Shown here: piece after piece, positions 2,855 through 19,325 of the stretch | How the letters are laid out: each line of letters starts with the position of its first letter | Numbering within the stretch: the first letter of the stretch is position 1 | Source of the DNA: a virus | IMG/VR virus record: IMGVR_UViG_3300025817_000002 | Location: 1 to 22,548 of that record | DNA: 22,548 bases | Strand: one strand, 5' to 3' | Made by a program: the position numbers and the translations under genes | The notes under the pieces: model-generated | What the model was told of the DNA's origin: nothing | Seen by the model: the letters and a program-made list of their open reading frames with translations, nothing else | Database searches by the model: none

Positions 2855-2872
2855 AAAACCCGCCGGAGCGGG
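2855..2872 (-). terminator. Terminator of the tRNA-like transcript
   Basis: On the minus strand CCCGC, loop TCCG, GCGGG (2872-2859) is followed by TTTTG. It lies about 50 bases after the end of the tRNA-like gene and before the convergent plus-strand genes. The stem is only 5 GC pairs, but the T-tract and position support a terminator. Confidence 0.7.
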
Positions 2873-2922: not shown

Positions 2923-3021
2923 TGGGGATGGCAGGAGTCGAACCTGCACGCTGATTAGAAGGAGCGCCCGAAATGGTCGGGTGCGTCTACCAAGCCCGGA
3001 TGGGCATTCCGCCACATCCCC
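2923..3021 (-). tRNA. Type II tRNA-like gene with D-loop hairpin insertion
   Basis: The 99-base sequence has a perfect 7-bp acceptor stem (GGGGATG/CATCCCC plus discriminator A), U8-G9, a D-stem GCG/CGC, a variable arm (CGCT/AGCG, 10-base loop) and a perfect T-arm GCAGG-TTCGACT-CCTGC. CCA is not encoded. The D-loop carries about 13 extra bases compared with tRNA-Leu, forming a mini hairpin GCCC-ATCC-GGGC between GAAT and TGGTAGA. The anticodon arm CCCGACCATTTCGGG gives either a 5-base loop with 5 pairs or a 7-base loop ACCATTT with 4 pairs. In the second case the central triplet is CAT but position 33 is C, not U. Amino acid identity is not assigned. The gene has its own promoter and terminator. 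Confidence 0.75.
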
Positions 3022-4007: not shown

Positions 4008-4832
4008 TTATTTTACCACGCCGGCGCCCGCAAACAGCGGCAGGCTTTCCAGCGGTTCCGCTTCCCGCTTCCGCTTCGGTGCTTTACCGAATTCGGGATG
4101 GACGCGCCGCCGCGCCAGTTCGCAATATTCCGCGCTGGTGTCGCCGCAGATAAACGCGCGCCCGCTAATTTTGGCGGCGACGGCGGTTGTGCCGCTGCCT
4201 GCGAACGGATCAAGGATCAACGCGCCGGGCTGGGTGTAGGTGCGTATGAGGTACTCGAAAAGGGCGACGGGTTTTTGGGTGGGGTGTTTGCCTCGCTCTC
4301 GATTAAAATAAACTACCGAGGTAGGAAAACGGGTTCCATCATTATCATTGCCTGAATGATTAGGCATTGTGTGGAACTTCATCGCACCGCTTCTTTTTCC
4401 GTGTGCCTTATATGGCTTCCCCGTTTTCATCTGCGGAAAATAATCCATTGTTTCAGAAGGCGAGTATGTCGAGGCGGCAGCACTGAAAACCAAAACCTGT
4501 TCATGTGCTATTGCGGGTTGATAGGGCACGTTGTACATTGTCGTTCCCTTCTCTTTTTCCCATACCCATTCATACTTGAACCACGCCTCATTGCTACATG
4601 CCAATTGATGCGCGAACATACCCGCCGCCGTCATCACCACCGCGCCGCGTGGCTTGATGACCCGCTTGAACGCCGCCCACATGTCAGCAAACGGCACGAC
4701 CACATCCCAGCTACACGCCGTCGTGCCATAGGGTACATCTGTGATGAGTAAATCTATGCTATGCTCTGGGATTTGCGCGCACAATTCGAGCGCGTCCATG
4801 CAGTAGGTGTGATTGGGTTGTGGCCGCCACAC
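4008..4832 (-). CDS. DNA adenine N6-methyltransferase, beta class
   Basis: The 274-residue protein would transfer a methyl group from S-adenosylmethionine to adenine in DNA. Catalytic motif IV comes first (LLITDVPYGTTACSWD, residues 28-43), a variable target-recognition stretch follows (about 90-180), then HPTQKPVALFEYLI (183-196, motif X) and the AdoMet loop DPFAGSGTT (208-216). This order is that of beta-class enzymes. Motif IV reads D-V-P-Y-G rather than the common D-P-P-Y; DLPYGTT-type variants are known in phage enzymes. The start is a GTG at 4832 without a clear ribosome site, so the true start is uncertain. No restriction gene is adjacent, so a solitary phage enzyme for evading or altering host restriction is likely. 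Confidence 0.9.
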   Translation of the reverse strand: MWRPQPNHTYCMDALELCAQIPEHSIDLLITDVPYGTTACSWDVVVPFADMWAAFKRVIKPRGAVVMTAAGMFAHQLACSNEAWFKYEWVWEKEKGTTMYNVPYQPAIAHEQVLVFSAAASTYSPSETMDYFPQMKTGKPYKAHGKRSGAMKFHTMPNHSGNDNDGTRFPTSVVYFNRERGKHPTQKPVALFEYLIRTYTQPGALILDPFAGSGTTAVAAKISGRAFICGDTSAEYCELARRRVHPEFGKAPKRKREAEPLESLPLFAGAGVVK

Positions 4833-5112: not shown

Positions 5113-5310
5113 CGGGTCGCCATCGGATGGTTTGATTTCGGCGGTGCCGCCTTCGGTCTTGGGCAGTTCGCGGTAAATTCGCAGATTAACAATATCGATG
5201 TTGTGTATCTCGGTTCCCTGCCCCGGTTCCAGTTCGTCAACATTCACCTCGACGGTATGCAACGTCCGACCAGCCTTATCACTGACTTCAATTATCAACT
5301 TCGGTGCCAC
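5086..5310 (-). CDS. Small hypothetical protein, 74 residues; paralogue of downstream gene
   Basis: The start is a GTG at 5310 with GGAAGG-type ribosome site about 8 bases upstream, inside the end of the preceding gene (23-base overlap). The product opens KLIIEVSDKAGRTLHTVEV, is acidic in the middle and ends PPQPKKTSE. It resembles the next gene's product at both ends. Function unknown. Position after the tail genes could point to an accessory virion or host-takeover protein, but nothing in the sequence shows this. Confidence 0.65.
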   Translation of the reverse strand: MAPKLIIEVSDKAGRTLHTVEVNVDELEPGQGTEIHNIDIVNLRIYRELPKTEGGTAEIKPSDGDPPQPKKTSE

Positions 5311-6010
5311 GCGGTTTCCCTTCCTGAGTCGCCTCGCCTACTTTGGCGGCGGGTGGCTCCTTACTGGCCGGGGCTGGCTTCAGGCGTTTGCCTGGCGTCG
5401 CCATCGGGTCAAGGGTTGGTTTGCTGGTGTCGGTGATGTTTTCCCCGGCTCCTTCGTTTTTCATAGTATACGCCTTGAGGATGAGTGCCTCCAAGCTCTT
5501 TCTTATTTCCTCCGCTTCCTTGCGGACTTCTTCAGCAGCCTTCGCCGGAATCTCGGTGGCGAGTGTTTCAAGGCTGGCGAGGTGGTCTGTGATGGACTTC
5601 ATCTGGCGCTGTGTTTCGTCGTGGCGCTGATCGATGTGAGTCACAATGCGGAGGGCCTGTTTCTGGCCTTCTTTAATCAGCTCCATCGTAATTTCATTGT
5701 GTTCCTTGAAACGCTCGGCGGTCAGGCGGTTGGCTTCGGCTTGCTCTCTCAGGATTTGCGTCAGTTGTGTTTGGTTCTGCTTTATTTCTTTCTGTGTTTG
5801 CACCACCTCAGTAATCACGGGCGCGAACAACGTCATGAGTGCTTTCATGTTGTCGTTGTCGTCGCTGTCGCTGCCCACAATTTTGTAGATGAGCGTCAGG
5901 ATAAGAACCGTCAGGATCATACCCGCCAGCGCCGCGACGACCGGGTTATCGAGGCTTTCCAGCAAACTGCTGGCGGCTTCCTCGATTTGCGCCAGGGCTA
6001 GCCAGTTCAT
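5288..6010 (-). CDS. Membrane-anchored coiled-coil protein
   Basis: The 240-residue product has one membrane segment near residues 24-46 (VVAALAGMILTVLILTLIY), then an acidic SDSDDND stretch. A long charged helical region follows (about 55-185), rich in Glu, Gln and Lys with heptad-like spacing, for example KEIKQNQTQLTQILREQAEANR. The tail is Pro/Lys-rich and disordered. No enzymatic motif is visible. It sits after the tail tip genes; a role in the envelope stage of infection, in lysis or in superinfection exclusion is possible, but the sequence does not decide. The next gene starts inside its last 23 bases. Confidence 0.65.
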   Translation of the reverse strand: MNWLALAQIEEAASSLLESLDNPVVAALAGMILTVLILTLIYKIVGSDSDDNDNMKALMTLFAPVITEVVQTQKEIKQNQTQLTQILREQAEANRLTAERFKEHNEITMELIKEGQKQALRIVTHIDQRHDETQRQMKSITDHLASLETLATEIPAKAAEEVRKEAEEIRKSLEALILKAYTMKNEGAGENITDTSKPTLDPMATPGKRLKPAPASKEPPAAKVGEATQEGKPRGTEVDN

Positions 6011-7221: not shown

Positions 7222-9957
7222 CTATTGATAAACCTCGAAGATGGCGTCGACGCCATCAGCGATCCATTCGCCGCCGCTGACCAGCCGCCGCATTTCGCCG
7301 CTGGCGTAGCCGGGGCTGCTGCTGTCGATGCCCCACTGAATATAATTCGAGGCATCAGGGAAGGCGCGGCTAGCGTCGTAATTGCGTCCCCGCCCCACGT
7401 TGTACAGGTAGGTGACTTCGGCGTCGGTCAGGGCACGCGACCACACACCCACCGGGCCAATCCTCCCATCAAAATAATTCGACACGCCATTCTGACGATA
7501 CCCAACGCCAAAAAATGCGCTGCTATCATAGATACCTGATGAATAGGAAACCGGAGTTGCATCCGTATCGTTTACACGAAGCTTCAAATTAGAACCATCG
7601 TGCCGGGCACATAAAAAATGCCACTCAAGCGTCGCCAACGATACCGTGTTCGTAATAGATGAGAATGCAGTCCCATCACCCGACACAAAGAAATCAGCGT
7701 TCTGGTCAGCCTGCACAATAATCATGAAAGCACGCTCATTTATCGTCGAATCATACTTTGAAACCAATACACGATGGCCGGACGGTACAGCCGTCGCCAT
7801 GTAAAACCACAGCGCAATGCTGCATTCATCCAAATCCAGCCCGCTTTGTGACGCATCCGCAATACTCAAATACTCCGAATTAGCAGCAACAAACTCTGCG
7901 GCGTTGCCTTGCAGTCCGATTGCCTGTGTGACGGTGTTATTGTCGGTCAGATCATTGCTGCCGTGCGCGTCGGTGCGCGTGCCGGATGCTTCATCCAGCG
8001 GCCAGAATGATACCAGGTCGGGGTCGTTGGCTTCCAGCACCAGCCAGTAAGTGGTTGATGCGGTCAGGCTTAAGGTGGCCGACAGCGTAAATGTGACCCA
8101 GGGCGTGCCCGCAATCTCGCTGCCTGAAATAGTGGCTGACGTTGCCAGCAGCGTGTCGGGATAGGCGCCGTCCGTGTTCAGCGTGGTGGTGCTGCCCAGC
8201 AGCCCGTCGGTGGCGTCGCCCAGCAGCCAGCCGCTGGCTAAGGTGCTGCTGCTGTAAATCCGCACGCGGTAATTATGCGTGGGGCTGCCGATGGTACCCA
8301 GAAAGACCTTGACATAGGTTGTGTCAAGGTTGGCTGAGACCTGAAACTGCTGCCCCAGACGGTCATTGACCACACCTCCCTTGAGGCTGACCCAGCTATC
8401 ACGATTGGAGCGCCCATATCCGGCCAGGCGTACCAGGTGGTGCGGTTCCAGCATGAAGGTGGCCTGATGAACGATTCCGCTTTTGCCGGTATCCATCAGC
8501 GTGTGCGTTTCGCCAATGATCCAGTAATAGGCGTCATGGTCGCCCACGATGATATGCAGCCTGTCGCCCAAATCCCAACTGAACAAATGTGCGTCTGAGG
8601 AGCCGTCGCCGGGTTCGGTAAACGATACACTGCGGGCTTCCAGCACAACATCGGTGCGCCGCGCCAGTTGAAAATCGGCAATCTCGACGGCATCTTCGTA
8701 ATCATCCACGCCGCGCAGTTTCAGGGTGAGTTCGGCGCGATTGCCATAGTCCACAACGGATTGATGGTTATCACGCCGCACCTGCACCTCATTGGTTGCC
8801 ATCAACGCCGTGCCCGTGATGGACAGCGCCGTGACCAGGTCGTCCTCCGTCCCGGTGTTGGTCAGCGTCACGATGGCACGGTCGGCGCGCTGGTCAAGGC
8901 TGGCGGTGGTCGTGCCATTGTTGCTCGTCACGGCGCTGGCGCTGACGGTGCCGGACGCCCCACACGAGCGTTTGTTGTTGTCGGTGAACTTGGCATCGAA
9001 GCGGATATAATCGCCCGGCGGAACGGTGGTACTCTGGTCCAGTGTCCACAGCGTGATGCTGCTTTCTGATTCGCGCGGGTAGACTGTGATCCGCACCCGG
9101 TTGAGGATGCCTTCGCCGTCCACATTCCACATCAAACCCGACGGCTTTTGACCACTGACCCCGCTATCGTCCACCGTGCCCACCGGGGCCACGTAATCGA
9201 TCAGGGTATCGCGGTTGTGAAAGATGGCTTTACCATTGCGCCCCTGGAAGAAGCGCCCCGGCTCGGCTTCCGCCATATCGCGGATGATGCGGTAGGCGCT
9301 TTGTTCATTCTGGCGGTGCGGATCGGGTGGGTCATCCTTCAGTAGATTGCGGATGTCCCCGTAATAGTGACAGGTGCGCGTGCCGGTATCCAGCGTGCTG
9401 TAGTCGCCCGCGTCGGCCAGTAGGGTGGTGCTGCCCAGCTCCGAGAAGCCCACCACACCCAGCAGCCAACCACCCGCAACGGCGGGCGGGAGTACCACCT
9501 GCTGCAAGGCCAGCGCGATAATCTCATCGGTGCGCTGGTTGGTTTGCAGGGGTAAATTCACCTCGGTGTTTTGCATAATGAACCGCGTGCCGATGCACTC
9601 GATTACAGCGGTGAGTTTCCCAGTTCGCGGGCCGTCGGGTGCCCATCCGGGCATAATGTTCTGGATGAATCCGCGAAACATGACCACTGCGCCCGTACCA
9701 GGATCGCCCTGAATTTTGACCGGACGACCCGGCAGCAGATTGCCATAGAGCGGGCTGCTGGTATTGTCGGGGTTATATTTGCCGTCGGTGTTGCGAACGA
9801 CAATCTGACAGGTGGATTCGGGCGCAATCACATCATAGGCGTTATTGATGCCGTTGCGCCAGCTCATCGTCTGGTAATCCGCCGCGATGTCGTCATATGT
9901 ACCGCTAAAGTTGCCGTTTTTGTCCCAGTCGATGAGGATATTCCAGGTGGTGGTCAT
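7222..9957 (-). CDS. Distal tail / tail hub protein with LamG-like domain
   Basis: The 911-residue product starts 4 bases inside the tape measure gene (ATGA). Residues 1-110 (WNILIDWDKNGNF, then SPLYGNLLPGRPVKI) look like the start of phage distal tail or baseplate hub proteins. Around 545-640 is a beta-rich region. Residues about 645-860 form a concanavalin/LamG-like domain: LVSFWPLDEASGTRTDAHGS, SIALWFYM, LRVNDTDATP and the usual end FDGRIGPVGVWSRALTDAEV. LamG domains bind sugars, so this part is a candidate for host recognition. A short tail (IQWGIDSSSPGY) closes the protein. Confidence 0.8.
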   Translation of the reverse strand: MTTTWNILIDWDKNGNFSGTYDDIAADYQTMSWRNGINNAYDVIAPESTCQIVVRNTDGKYNPDNTSSPLYGNLLPGRPVKIQGDPGTGAVVMFRGFIQNIMPGWAPDGPRTGKLTAVIECIGTRFIMQNTEVNLPLQTNQRTDEIIALALQQVVLPPAVAGGWLLGVVGFSELGSTTLLADAGDYSTLDTGTRTCHYYGDIRNLLKDDPPDPHRQNEQSAYRIIRDMAEAEPGRFFQGRNGKAIFHNRDTLIDYVAPVGTVDDSGVSGQKPSGLMWNVDGEGILNRVRITVYPRESESSITLWTLDQSTTVPPGDYIRFDAKFTDNNKRSCGASGTVSASAVTSNNGTTTASLDQRADRAIVTLTNTGTEDDLVTALSITGTALMATNEVQVRRDNHQSVVDYGNRAELTLKLRGVDDYEDAVEIADFQLARRTDVVLEARSVSFTEPGDGSSDAHLFSWDLGDRLHIIVGDHDAYYWIIGETHTLMDTGKSGIVHQATFMLEPHHLVRLAGYGRSNRDSWVSLKGGVVNDRLGQQFQVSANLDTTYVKVFLGTIGSPTHNYRVRIYSSSTLASGWLLGDATDGLLGSTTTLNTDGAYPDTLLATSATISGSEIAGTPWVTFTLSATLSLTASTTYWLVLEANDPDLVSFWPLDEASGTRTDAHGSNDLTDNNTVTQAIGLQGNAAEFVAANSEYLSIADASQSGLDLDECSIALWFYMATAVPSGHRVLVSKYDSTINERAFMIIVQADQNADFFVSGDGTAFSSITNTVSLATLEWHFLCARHDGSNLKLRVNDTDATPVSYSSGIYDSSAFFGVGYRQNGVSNYFDGRIGPVGVWSRALTDAEVTYLYNVGRGRNYDASRAFPDASNYIQWGIDSSSPGYASGEMRRLVSGGEWIADGVDAIFEVYQ

Positions 9958-13547: not shown

Positions 13548-13961
13548 TTACGAACTTGAGAACAAAACAACTGTATAACGCCCACCTGCATAATAGGCGG
13601 GTTCGCCTGCCACCATATCGGGAATCCAGAACGGCTCCGTGTGCCAGAACACATTACACGTCCAGCCCGATATGGTGATACTGGCCTGCTGACCATGCAG
13701 CGCGGTTTTGAGTGCCGCCATGATGGTGCGCGCGCTGGTGGCGGCGGCGCTGTGGTCTTTGTCCTGCGTATAGACGCCCACCTGCCACGTTTCCACGCGC
13801 CAGTCGCCGCTGACATTGTTCATTTCCCCGCCGCCGATATGCTCCACAAGAATGTAAGGACTGCTAATCCCTGACGGCGCTTGTGATAGGAAGGTATTGG
13901 CTGCGCCTGTGACGCTGGCGGCCACCAGGCGCGCCTTGATGCCTGCAACGACTTCGTGCAT
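13548..13961 (-). CDS. Tail terminator protein
   Basis: The 137-residue product starts with a helix (MHEVVAGIKARLVAAS), then ISSPYILVEHIGGGE and a pattern of strands (WRVETWQVGVYTQDK, ITISGWTCNVFWHTEPFW) and a final YTVVLFSSS. This is the usual fold pattern of tail terminator or tail completion proteins that stop tube growth and join the tail to the head. The start overlaps the gene before it as TAATG. The order after the HK97-gp10-like gene and before the tube gene is standard. Confidence 0.75.
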   Translation of the reverse strand: MHEVVAGIKARLVAASVTGAANTFLSQAPSGISSPYILVEHIGGGEMNNVSGDWRVETWQVGVYTQDKDHSAAATSARTIMAALKTALHGQQASITISGWTCNVFWHTEPFWIPDMVAGEPAYYAGGRYTVVLFSSS

Positions 13962-14396: not shown

Positions 14397-14591
14397 TCAT
14401 TCGGGTTCCAATTGGATAATATAGCGGCGCGTGAAAACATCATGCTCCACAATGCGAAAGTAAAATTTTCCGAGATGAATAACGTCATCGTCGGAAATTT
14501 GTTTTTGTGGCATCTCACGCAAATCGATCTCGTCAAAATAAAAGCAGTCCTGTCTATTTGGAACAGGAAGAAGCTCCAACTCTTCGCTCAT
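14397..14591 (-). CDS. Small acidic hypothetical protein, 64 residues
   Basis: Starts MSEELELLPVPNRQD at 14591, overlapping the stop of the upstream minigene by ATGA, with AAAGGTG just upstream. The product is acidic with several aromatic residues (CFYFDEIDL, LGKFYFRIVEHDVF) and ends IIQLEPE. Not recognised. Its leader and first codons are a copy of those of the 66-residue gene upstream, but the rest of the two proteins is not similar. It lies between the neck stopper gene and the HK97-gp10-like gene. Confidence 0.6.
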   Translation of the reverse strand: MSEELELLPVPNRQDCFYFDEIDLREMPQKQISDDDVIHLGKFYFRIVEHDVFTRRYIIQLEPE

Positions 14592-14635
14592 GCGCTCACC
14601 TTTCTTACTGTTGCGCGGCGGGTGTCAACGGTCAT
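14588..14635 (-). other. Chimeric 15-codon minigene (duplication junction)
   Basis: The frame encodes MTVDTRRATVRKVSA. The first seven residues equal the start of the HK97-gp10-like protein. The last eight equal the end of the stopper protein (ATVGKVSA) with one change. It overlaps the genes on both sides by ATGA, so it could still be translated. It looks like the scar of a tandem duplication rather than a selected gene. Confidence 0.75.
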
Positions 14636-14832
14636 TTGTCCAGCTCCACGTCGAGACTGCATTCAATGCGCTTATAGCCGCCAATCCATCCCGCGAACTG
14701 GATAATTTGGTGACATAGCCACATCCGACGGCGCTGGCGTTTTTCGCCCATTAGCTTGACGCGCAGCACAACGGATTTAGATATGATTTTTTGCGCGTCC
14801 ACTTTGCCCCTAAGATTCAGTTCTTCGCTCAT
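14632..14832 (-). CDS. Small basic hypothetical protein, 66 residues
   Basis: Starts MSEELNLRGKVDAQK at 14832, overlapping the stopper gene stop by ATGA. The middle is strongly basic (LRVKLMGEKRQRRRMWLC) and followed by a short amphipathic or hydrophobic stretch (HQIIQFAGWIGG). It ends CSLDVELDK. The family was not recognised. A membrane-surface or nucleic-acid contact is possible from charge alone. It occupies the first of two duplicated slots in the neck module. Confidence 0.6.
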   Translation of the reverse strand: MSEELNLRGKVDAQKIISKSVVLRVKLMGEKRQRRRMWLCHQIIQFAGWIGGYKRIECSLDVELDK

Positions 14833-17146: not shown

Positions 17147-17400
17147 CAGGCATCCTCCGATTCCCGCTGCGCGATATACTCCTCCACCGCCGCAACAGCA
17201 TCTTGGAGTGTGCCACGAACGCCCCATGACACGGAACCAACCGCCGTCACATGTTCGCAGCCATAGTCATTTCCGGCACCATTCCAGATGTAGAACATCC
17301 CGTATTTGTTTCTTGTCCACCACGCAACGCACGGAAACTGCTGTAAGTGTTTTAGCAGGCCGTCCATCGTGCAGGCTATCTGCTCATCAACACTGCTCAT
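17146..17400 (-). CDS. Small hypothetical protein, 84 residues
   Basis: The ATG at 17400 shares its A with the stop of the glycosyltransferase gene. A TTG three bases earlier is an alternative. The product (MSSVDEQIACTMDGLL to QRESEDA) has a helical start, a Trp/Tyr-rich middle (CVAWWTRNKYGMFYIWNGAG) and a helical, acidic end. No family was recognised. No signal or membrane segment. It is part of the tightly overlapped glycosyltransferase block. Confidence 0.6.
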   Translation of the reverse strand: MSSVDEQIACTMDGLLKHLQQFPCVAWWTRNKYGMFYIWNGAGNDYGCEHVTAVGSVSWGVRGTLQDAVAAVEEYIAQRESEDA

Positions 17401-19325
17401 CAAACCCTCTCCGATTCGGCCTCCGGCATGGCCCTGATTATACCACGCGCATAGGCGCGCAGACTATCCTCATCATGCAGGCCGTTGCTGTTCATATCCA
17501 GCCCGCGCACCCGGCGCACCAGCGAAAGATAGTTGTCCTCGACGTGCTTCATAAATTCGTCGGGATAATCGCGCGATGTGCCGCCGCCCAGGTGCTGCAA
17601 GCCCCAATCGACCTGCACCAGACCGTAGCCCAGCTTGATAGCGCGGTAGCAGAGGTCGGAATCTTCCCAATACCCGAACGGGAAATGTTGGGCGTCCAGG
17701 CCGTCCAGCACCTGCCAGATTTCGCGGCGGGCGGCCACCGCCCAGCCCTCGATGTAGGGCAGCAGTTCATTATCCACTGATTTCATGCCCTGGATTTGCC
17801 CGGTAATGGCTCCGGTGCGAACGCCGCGCACCATATCCAGCCAGCCCGGTTTGGTGGCGGCGATGTCGTTATTCAGCAGCAGCACAATATCCCCGTTGGC
17901 GAGCTTCAAGCCCTGGTTGCTGCCTGCCGCAAACCCAATATTGCTGGTGTTTTTGTGGTAGACCCCACGCAGGCGCTCCACCATGGCGAAGATTTGCGCG
18001 GATATGTCCTCGTCGCTGGCGTTGTCAATGATGATGACTTCATCCGCGCCCCGCACGGCAGCTTCATAGGCCGCGATGTACTCCGGGTGATTGTGCCAGA
18101 GCGTAACAATCGAGAGGCGGCGGCCCGGTGACGGCATGACAAATTGACGGCTGGCCCGCAGGCCCTCCTCAACCAGTCCAAACAAGGGCTTCCAGTATTC
18201 CTCGGTGACGGTGGCGGCGTCGTAGTTTTCGACCACGCCCGCCCGCGCCTTGTTCGCCAGCGCAGCATTGCCGCGCTTTTGGTAGGCTTTCTGGTACGCC
18301 TCGGTAATGGCCTCCACATCGGGAATGGCCTGGTAGCTCTGCTGATACGTCCAGAGTTTGTGCTTGATTGGAACTTTCCAGCCCGCGAACAACTTTTCGG
18401 GCATGGATGAAAAGTCGGTGACGATGGCGGGCGTGCCGCAGCTTTGCGCTTCCACAATCGGCAGGCCAAAACCCTCACCCATCGTGGCATGGCTTAACAC
18501 GTCTATGGCGTTGTACCAGTTGACCATATACGCCTGATCGGTCAGCCCGGCGGTGATTTCATACTGGTTCGTCGCCAGAATCGCATCCATCGGCAGGCCA
18601 ATCACGTCGCACATGCGCACGATGTTTTCATCGGCCACCAGCGGCGTATGGATCGCCAATCGCACATTGTCGGGGTCTTTTTCCCAGAAGGCCTTAAACG
18701 CCCGGATTTGCGGTTCCAGCGCCTTCCGACTGGGTGTGCCCTTGTTGGCCCCAATCAGACCCACGATAAACAGGCCGCTTGACCAGTCCGTGCGGTCATC
18801 CTTTTGACTGAGGAATTCGCGGGCGACCAGCAGGTCGCCCGGTTTCCAGACGGCGGTGTTGATGCCATGCGGAATATAGGCGGCTTCGATGCCTGCCGCC
18901 TTGCAGAGTGCCTGCCCGTCCCGGCTCAACACAACCGGGAACTGGCAATGCTGCAAGACCGTTTTACAGGCCAGCGGCAGCGGATGATGATCGACCGGAA
19001 ACCAGGCCAGCCAGGGGATGCCGTCGAAAAATTCGGGGCGGTAGGCCCACACGTCATGCAGTGTCATCAGCAGATCAGCCTTGAAATAGGTCATGTCCGC
19101 CGCGAATATTTGCGAGCCGCGCGGGTCTTCGGAAGCGTCCATCGGCAGCACCTGAATGGCTTTATTGTTGCCAATGGGAAAAGCGACGGGCGAACCGCCC
19201 AGAGACGAATTCGCCCGCATCACGAATTGATGACCCAGCCCCGCCCAGCGCGGCAGCATTTCAAGTGCCTGCGTGCCGTAGCCGCTGGGGGCCAGGGGTG
19301 GGTTCGAGGAGAAGAGAATCCGCAT
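17400..19325 (-). CDS. Fused GT4-GT2 glycosyltransferase
   Basis: The 641-residue protein joins two glycosyltransferases. Residues 1-390 are a GT-B enzyme of the GT4 type: PLAPSGYGTQ at the N-terminus, IPHGINTAVWKPGD in the middle and the donor-site motif EGFGLPIVE (E284 and E292). Residues about 400-640 are a GT-A enzyme of the GT2 type: LSIVTLWHNHPEY, IIIDNASDED, NIGFAAGSNQG (462-472), LLLNND (482-487) as the metal/nucleotide site, and GYWEDSDLCYRAIKLGYG as the catalytic region. All key residues appear present. The start overlaps the candidate decoration gene as TAATG, so its translation is tied to virion genes. Sugar and acceptor cannot be told. Confidence 0.9.
   Translation of the reverse strand: MRILFSSNPPLAPSGYGTQALEMLPRWAGLGHQFVMRANSSLGGSPVAFPIGNNKAIQVLPMDASEDPRGSQIFAADMTYFKADLLMTLHDVWAYRPEFFDGIPWLAWFPVDHHPLPLACKTVLQHCQFPVVLSRDGQALCKAAGIEAAYIPHGINTAVWKPGDLLVAREFLSQKDDRTDWSSGLFIVGLIGANKGTPSRKALEPQIRAFKAFWEKDPDNVRLAIHTPLVADENIVRMCDVIGLPMDAILATNQYEITAGLTDQAYMVNWYNAIDVLSHATMGEGFGLPIVEAQSCGTPAIVTDFSSMPEKLFAGWKVPIKHKLWTYQQSYQAIPDVEAITEAYQKAYQKRGNAALANKARAGVVENYDAATVTEEYWKPLFGLVEEGLRASRQFVMPSPGRRLSIVTLWHNHPEYIAAYEAAVRGADEVIIIDNASDEDISAQIFAMVERLRGVYHKNTSNIGFAAGSNQGLKLANGDIVLLLNNDIAATKPGWLDMVRGVRTGAITGQIQGMKSVDNELLPYIEGWAVAARREIWQVLDGLDAQHFPFGYWEDSDLCYRAIKLGYGLVQVDWGLQHLGGGTSRDYPDEFMKHVEDNYLSLVRRVRGLDMNSNGLHDEDSLRAYARGIIRAMPEAESERV

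Follow-up and report, generated by a model that had tools for sequence, protein, structure and literature searches.

A leucine-type tRNA-like gene with a D-loop hairpin and an abnormal anticodon loop in a viral genome fragment

The locus and its gene neighbourhood

The stretch of DNA analysed here (the window) comprises 22,548 nucleotides, positions 1 to 22,548 of the IMG/VR virus record IMGVR_UViG_3300025817_000002. Its minus strand carries, from 3021 to 2923, a 99-nt tRNA gene of the leucine type. With cmscan, the gene scores 38.7 bits against the Rfam tRNA model (RF00005), for a gathering score of 29, and it is therefore recognized as a tRNA cloverleaf; the E-values are 4e-7 on a 191-nt stretch and 1.1e-8 on the record. 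A cmscan of the whole window (E<=1) and ARAGORN with default settings both missed it, presumably because the D-loop is long, and ARAGORN at a reduced threshold reported a distorted version. The features of the locus are the following.

2923..3021, minus strand: whole tRNA-Leu-like gene, 99 nt; A73 at 2923; CCA not encoded, the next bases being CAG
Gene sequence, minus strand, 5′ half: GGGGATG TG GCGG AAT GCCCATCCGGGC TT GGTAGA CGC A CCCGA CCATT TCGGG
Gene sequence, minus strand, rest, after TCGGG: CGCT CCTTCTAATC AGCG T GCAGG TTCGACT CCTGC CATCCCC A
3015..3021, minus strand: acceptor stem, 5′ strand GGGGATG, 7/7 pairs with 2924-2930
2924..2930, minus strand: acceptor stem, 3′ strand CATCCCC, 7/7 pairs with 3015-3021
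3010..3012, minus strand: D-stem, 5′ strand GCG (positions 10-12), from the sequence and the cmscan alignment
2994..3006, minus strand: 13-nt D-loop insert TGCCCATCCGGGC; same 13-mer on the plus strand at 9640-9652
2994-3005, minus strand: insert hairpin GCCC-ATCC-GGGC, from folding against shuffles
2983..2985, minus strand: D-stem, 3′ strand CGC (positions 23-25), after G18 G19 U20 A20a, from the sequence and cmscan
2967..2981, minus strand: anticodon-like arm CCCGA-CCATT-TCGGG, 5 bp and a 5-nt loop, or 4 bp and ACCATTT
2949..2966, minus strand: variable arm CGCT-CCTTCTAATC-AGCG, 4 bp and a 10-nt loop, from the fold of the middle segment
2948, minus strand: U48
2931..2947, minus strand: T-arm GCAGG-TTCGACT-CCTGC, 5/5 pairs, normal 7-nt loop
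3032..3040, minus strand: extended -10 element TGCTATAAT, perfect; the leader would be about 5-10 nt
2859..2872, minus strand: terminator-like hairpin CCCGCTCCGGCGGG (CCCGC-TCCG-GCGGG), then TTTTGTG; not above chance
2-1180: open-ended reading frame, lysis-like region
1213-1779: SH3_3-type protein, lysis-like region
1715-2296: 193-aa protein, lysis-like region
4008-4832: DNA methylase, beyond small unknown proteins

A sequence-only reading had described this locus as a tRNA-like gene with a hairpin in the D-loop, an abnormal anticodon loop, and perfect acceptor and T-arms, and the sequence and the Rfam score show that it is real. It had also credited the gene with its own promoter and terminator. 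The promoter part holds to the extent that the extended -10 element is perfect (0.31 such sites are expected per window and two are seen), but a scan for a -35 element gave none above the cut-off. The terminator part is not supported, as shuffled sequence yields hairpins as good as that at 2872-2859.

The tRNA gene is flanked by the lysis-like region and, via small unknown proteins, by the DNA methylase gene. An attachment-site remnant, left from a host tRNA gene after integration, had been proposed; integration at the 3′ ends of tRNA genes is common among phages. This origin is most improbable. The gene is complete and has its own -10 element, and it is flanked left and right by minus-strand genes of the phage gene array, so that the locus is no attachment-site junction. 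Moreover, no integrase was found among the window proteins searched, and no cellular gene matching the 99-nt gene was found in 400 Chloroflexota genomes.

Some other features of the window deserve mention. Near the tRNA gene, a plus-strand 60-aa ORF (2613-2795) runs opposite to the main genes and weakly matches phrog_35472 (E 0.0004); it is followed by a terminator-like hairpin (2798-2819). Two minus-strand frames, 14397-14591 and 14632-14832, have near-equal leaders (..GGTGAGCGCATGAGC..) and both start with MSEEL, apparently as the result of a partial duplication. A two-domain glycosyltransferase gene (17400-19325, minus strand) lies within the head gene array, and a related gene occupies an equivalent place in Microcystis phage Mae-JY09. 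Finally, a cmscan match to "IRES_Bip" at 13604 is below its gathering score and was taken as chance.

Departures from a standard leucine tRNA

The gene resembles the tRNA-Leu(UAG) of Chloroflexota (L117/L118) in its acceptor stem GGGGATG/CATCCCC, its TGGCGGAAT..GGYAGACGC D-arm, its long variable arm, and A73. Unlike bacterial tRNA-Leu, a type II tRNA, it has a 13-nt insert forming a hairpin in the D-loop, a 5-nt anticodon loop, and a variable-arm loop enlarged to 10 nt, the last of which is absent from the sequence-only reading. These three departures all sit in loops. Indeed, every stem is intact (acceptor 7/7, T-stem 5/5, D-stem 3/3, anticodon stem 5 pairs), which bears out the earlier argument against simple decay. 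An identification as tRNA-Sec or allo-tRNA was rejected, because these require a 12/13-bp acceptor-T domain (8/5, 9/4, 8/4, or 9/3) and the gene has 7/5.

Measured against GGCGGAA|TTGG, the D-loop insert is exactly 13 nt long. It folds into a better hairpin than 1000 shuffles (p=0.001), and hairpins with four G:C pairs and a 4-nt loop make up 0.17% of the 12-mers of the window. The cloverleaf bearing this hairpin is 0.8 kcal/mol above the computed minimum free energy; hence, the bare fold is not unique and has competitors. The 3′ acceptor strand was considered as the source of this insert, but the resemblance is not significant (p about 0.2).

The anticodon arm is as previously described. Its five pairs close a 5-nt loop, and opening A31-U39 leaves a 4-bp stem with the 7-nt loop ACCAUUU, in which the anticodon is CAU and position 33 is C. 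A decoding tRNA-Leu has a 5-bp stem, a 7-nt loop, and U33; the first form of the arm fails on loop size and the second on C33, which upholds the view that this is not a standard decoding tRNA. Since the 7-nt loop can be drawn with four stem pairs, the RNA might still decode through CAU, inserting leucine at AUG codons or, once modified with lysidine, at AUA. Such decoding is very doubtful: A31-U39 pairs and closes the 5-nt loop, U33 is replaced by C33, leucine at start and methionine codons would be harmful, and other genes with a D-loop hairpin also do without a canonical arm. The earlier suggestion of a recoding tRNA is unlikely for the same reason of a 5-nt loop or C33.

The exact 13-nt insert recurs, inverted, in a tail/lectin-domain gene at 9640-9652, with GTCGGGTGC shared near both sites. 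A second copy in the window is found for about 0.8% of 13-mers having the G+C content of the insert, but for 8% of hairpin 13-mers. The tail-gene copy suits an accidental templated insertion. Apart from this 13-nt match, the phage genes offer mostly stretches of 8-10 nt that could pair in antisense with the D-hairpin or with the anticodon and variable loops.

No homologue of the 99-nt gene was found in viral contigs or in phage and plasmid DNA, and the DNA of the tRNA region gave nothing beyond short tRNA stretches against phages and plasmids. The only close relative of the record, L002, is identical over the capsid end and stops short of the tRNA gene. Apart from L002, no viral-contig relatives were found for the tape-measure protein, the tail protein, or a 240-aa protein (5288-6010). 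Chloroflexota prophages have a capsid protein about 45% identical and almost nothing else in common with the record; the capsids of Aeribacillus phages are equally near, so that capsid likeness singles out no host. The gene is a single orphan copy whose stems and -10 element are intact.

These observations bear on the main rival of a non-decoding role, a recent pseudogene. A canonical phage tRNA-Leu would have been broken when its D-loop received a templated insertion of 13 nt and its anticodon loop lost two bases, its stems being intact because the decay is young. The inverted copy of the 13-mer in the tail gene and the orphan status of the gene favor this history. An intact ancestor is also readily conceived, as 2 of 400 Chloroflexota genomes have a normal tRNA-Leu(UAG) whose acceptor stem is identical. 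Yet at least two indels would have to have spared the stems, the insert folds as a strong hairpin, and the variable-arm loop has changed as well. A recently broken tRNA-Leu is possible and, on balance, rather unlikely.

Leucine-tRNA-like genes with a D-loop hairpin in other viral contigs

Carriers of similar genes were searched for with a pattern for leucine-type D-arms having an insert ahead of G18G19. Leucine-tRNA-like genes were found in dozens of other viral contigs, about 35 distinct ones having a D-loop hairpin. Thirty distinct viral inserts, that of the window included, give far better hairpins than shuffled sequence does (Fisher p about 4e-30, uncorrected for relatedness), while four cellular inserts that resemble gene duplications do not. 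In one group of nine, the D-hairpin covaries, with compensatory changes in 3/6 pairs and all cells paired, and slid controls are much worse than the true helix. Most cellular matches of the D-insert pattern were set aside as tandem duplications or chance. A scan for GGCAGACGC variants gave two further carriers and otherwise chance matches, and a family model derived from the carriers with a D-hairpin served only to recheck known loci.

The decoding arm is affected in the same genes. A full five-pair anticodon stem together with a 7-nt loop and U33 is present in none of the 35 carriers besides the window gene (three have 4/5 pairs with U33), vs. five of five cellular leucine tRNAs with inserts. 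The 46 clustered non-canonical middles (the D-loop is normal in 12) are hypervariable apart from a kept U48, found in 45; A73 is kept in 38. The search pattern left U48 and A73 free, whereas it partly fixed A14, A15, and G18G19. These viruses thus appear to maintain a leucine-type shell that has a hairpin in the D-loop and lacks a decoding arm. This recurrence, with covariation in one group, speaks against the window gene being a broken tRNA-Leu.

The window gene has both hallmarks, namely a hairpin before G18G19 and, with A15-U48 kept, no full 5-bp/7-nt/U33 arm. Like the IMG/VR carriers (L012-L078), it has leucine-type D- and T-arms, a hairpin at the same site of the D-loop, no standard anticodon arm, and U48. 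The carriers differ in that they are mostly AT-rich, with AGTCAGG-type shells, often lie beside other tRNA genes, and have a variable middle of 20-117 nt, whereas the anticodon and variable arms of the window gene are roughly normal in size. As sequence matches are limited to the general tRNA-Leu shell, the tie to the other carriers is best regarded as a structural analogy rather than a demonstrated homology. The nearest structural parallel is L023 at 624 (minus strand), on a viral contig of 376 kb. It is a near-canonical tRNA of the leucine type whose D-loop bears a hairpin and whose anticodon loop, GCTAAA, has 6 nt.

Various arrangements occur among the other carriers. AGTCAGG..CCTGACT shells enclosing a hypervariable structured middle of 20-117 nt, which takes the place of the anticodon and variable region, are found in L012, L015, L025, L028, L033, L037, L046, L048, L054, L063, L065, and L071. 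A single viral contig can have as many as six occurrences of the shell pattern (G017). L012 and L028 have the same D-hairpin shell and quite different middles. With small changes, a middle module TATACTTAAGCAGTTGAAGCTGGGTAATTCAACAAT is found in L033, L045, L015, L048, and L073, both with and without a D-loop hairpin, as if modules had been exchanged between shells. In L017, L047, L075, and L040 (at 3908), the middle has a stem around ATGGTTATAGCA that changes yet stays paired, as well as a GGTAAAAAAAC stretch, and TTATAG/CTATAA may form a pseudoknot; Rfam gave no match to this type of module in L017, L040, and L047. In L152, near 175-290, the anticodon arm of a leucine-tRNA-like gene with a D-loop hairpin is replaced by a second T-arm-like hairpin, ATTAGG-TTCGAAT-CCTAAT, and a stretch resembling a T-arm is likewise present in the middle of L020. 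Some carrier contigs also gave matches to tmRNA-like sequences and one to GOLLD RNA (L046 1303-1794, L036 134-549, L047 9099-9338).

No Rfam family besides tRNA covers these RNAs in the loci scanned, blastn of annotated phage records returned short tRNA matches or nothing, and no description of such RNAs was found in open-licence papers. Leucine-tRNA-like RNAs of this sort are probably under-annotated, because default ARAGORN and the whole-window Rfam scan missed the window gene.

Leucine determinants and a possible role off the ribosome

In Escherichia coli, leucine identity relies on A73, A15-U48, G18G19, A20a, and D/T-loop contacts, and removal of the anticodon and variable arms leaves tRNA-Leu chargeable (PMC9976931). 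When compared with this set, the window gene carries A73, A14, A15-U48, G18G19, and A20a. Since the leucine determinants are all kept, the product is a candidate non-decoding tRNA: it may undergo processing like a tRNA and be bound or charged by leucyl-tRNA synthetase (LeuRS) while being unable to read codons. We give an even chance to its being transcribed as a phage leucine-type tRNA-like RNA that no longer decodes, and, given the look-alikes in other viral contigs, we rate this above recent decay.

What we infer for this RNA, namely transcription, processing, charging, and a decoy role, would proceed as follows. The transcript would start at its own extended -10 element, host RNase P would trim the 5′ end, and a CCA tail would be added. 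The RNA would fold as an L-shaped tRNA whose elbow bears the extra D-loop hairpin. LeuRS and other tRNA-binding proteins would probably bind or charge it through the kept A73, A14, A15-U48, G18G19, A20a, and D/T contacts; the D-hairpin adjoins G18G19 and could block charging. The anticodon loop, with 5 nt, or 7 nt and C33, should prevent codon reading, so that the RNA would work away from the ribosome, where its most likely part is to engage some host factor that binds tRNA, as a competitor or decoy. Neither the window nor 20 carrier records yielded a gene for a LeuRS editing domain or a Leu/Phe transferase, so nothing points to a partner encoded by the phage. Several features count against a non-decoding role: a single copy with no relative found, no -35 element, a chance-level terminator, competing folds, and the 13-mer in the tail gene.

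One version of the non-decoding reading makes the RNA a decoy for host anticodon nucleases or for a phage-sensing tRNA nuclease. A stable non-decoding tRNA body could occupy tRNA-cleaving enzymes, and resistance to anticodon nucleases has been proposed for phage tRNAs whose anticodon loops are altered (PMC10264068). Like the window gene, those tRNAs are phage-encoded and altered in the anticodon loop; however, the proposal covers decoding tRNAs that replace cleaved ones, their decoding loops are kept, with substitutions, and a D-loop hairpin is not reported. This particular function is improbable. Another parallel is offered by rnaC and rnaD of phage T4, small stable RNAs that are also encoded beside tRNA genes, rnaC ending in a T-arm-like hairpin; they differ in length (139 and 119 nt) and in the absence of a D-loop hairpin on a leucine-type D-arm.

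More broadly, and tentatively, phages may encode a class of non-decoding leucyl-tRNA-like RNAs, of which the window gene would be a small, nearly canonical, G+C-rich example. Members would keep the acceptor and elbow shell that LeuRS reads and gain a hairpin in the D-loop, with the anticodon arm lost or exchanged for something else. The charged or LeuRS-binding RNA would then work off the ribosome or carry other RNA modules.

The usual explanations of phage tRNAs are codon supply and the replacement of cleaved host tRNAs. The non-decoding reading predicts leucine charging without decoding. If it is true, phages also put tRNA bodies to uses beyond decoding, retaining the determinants for charging while giving up a working anticodon loop.
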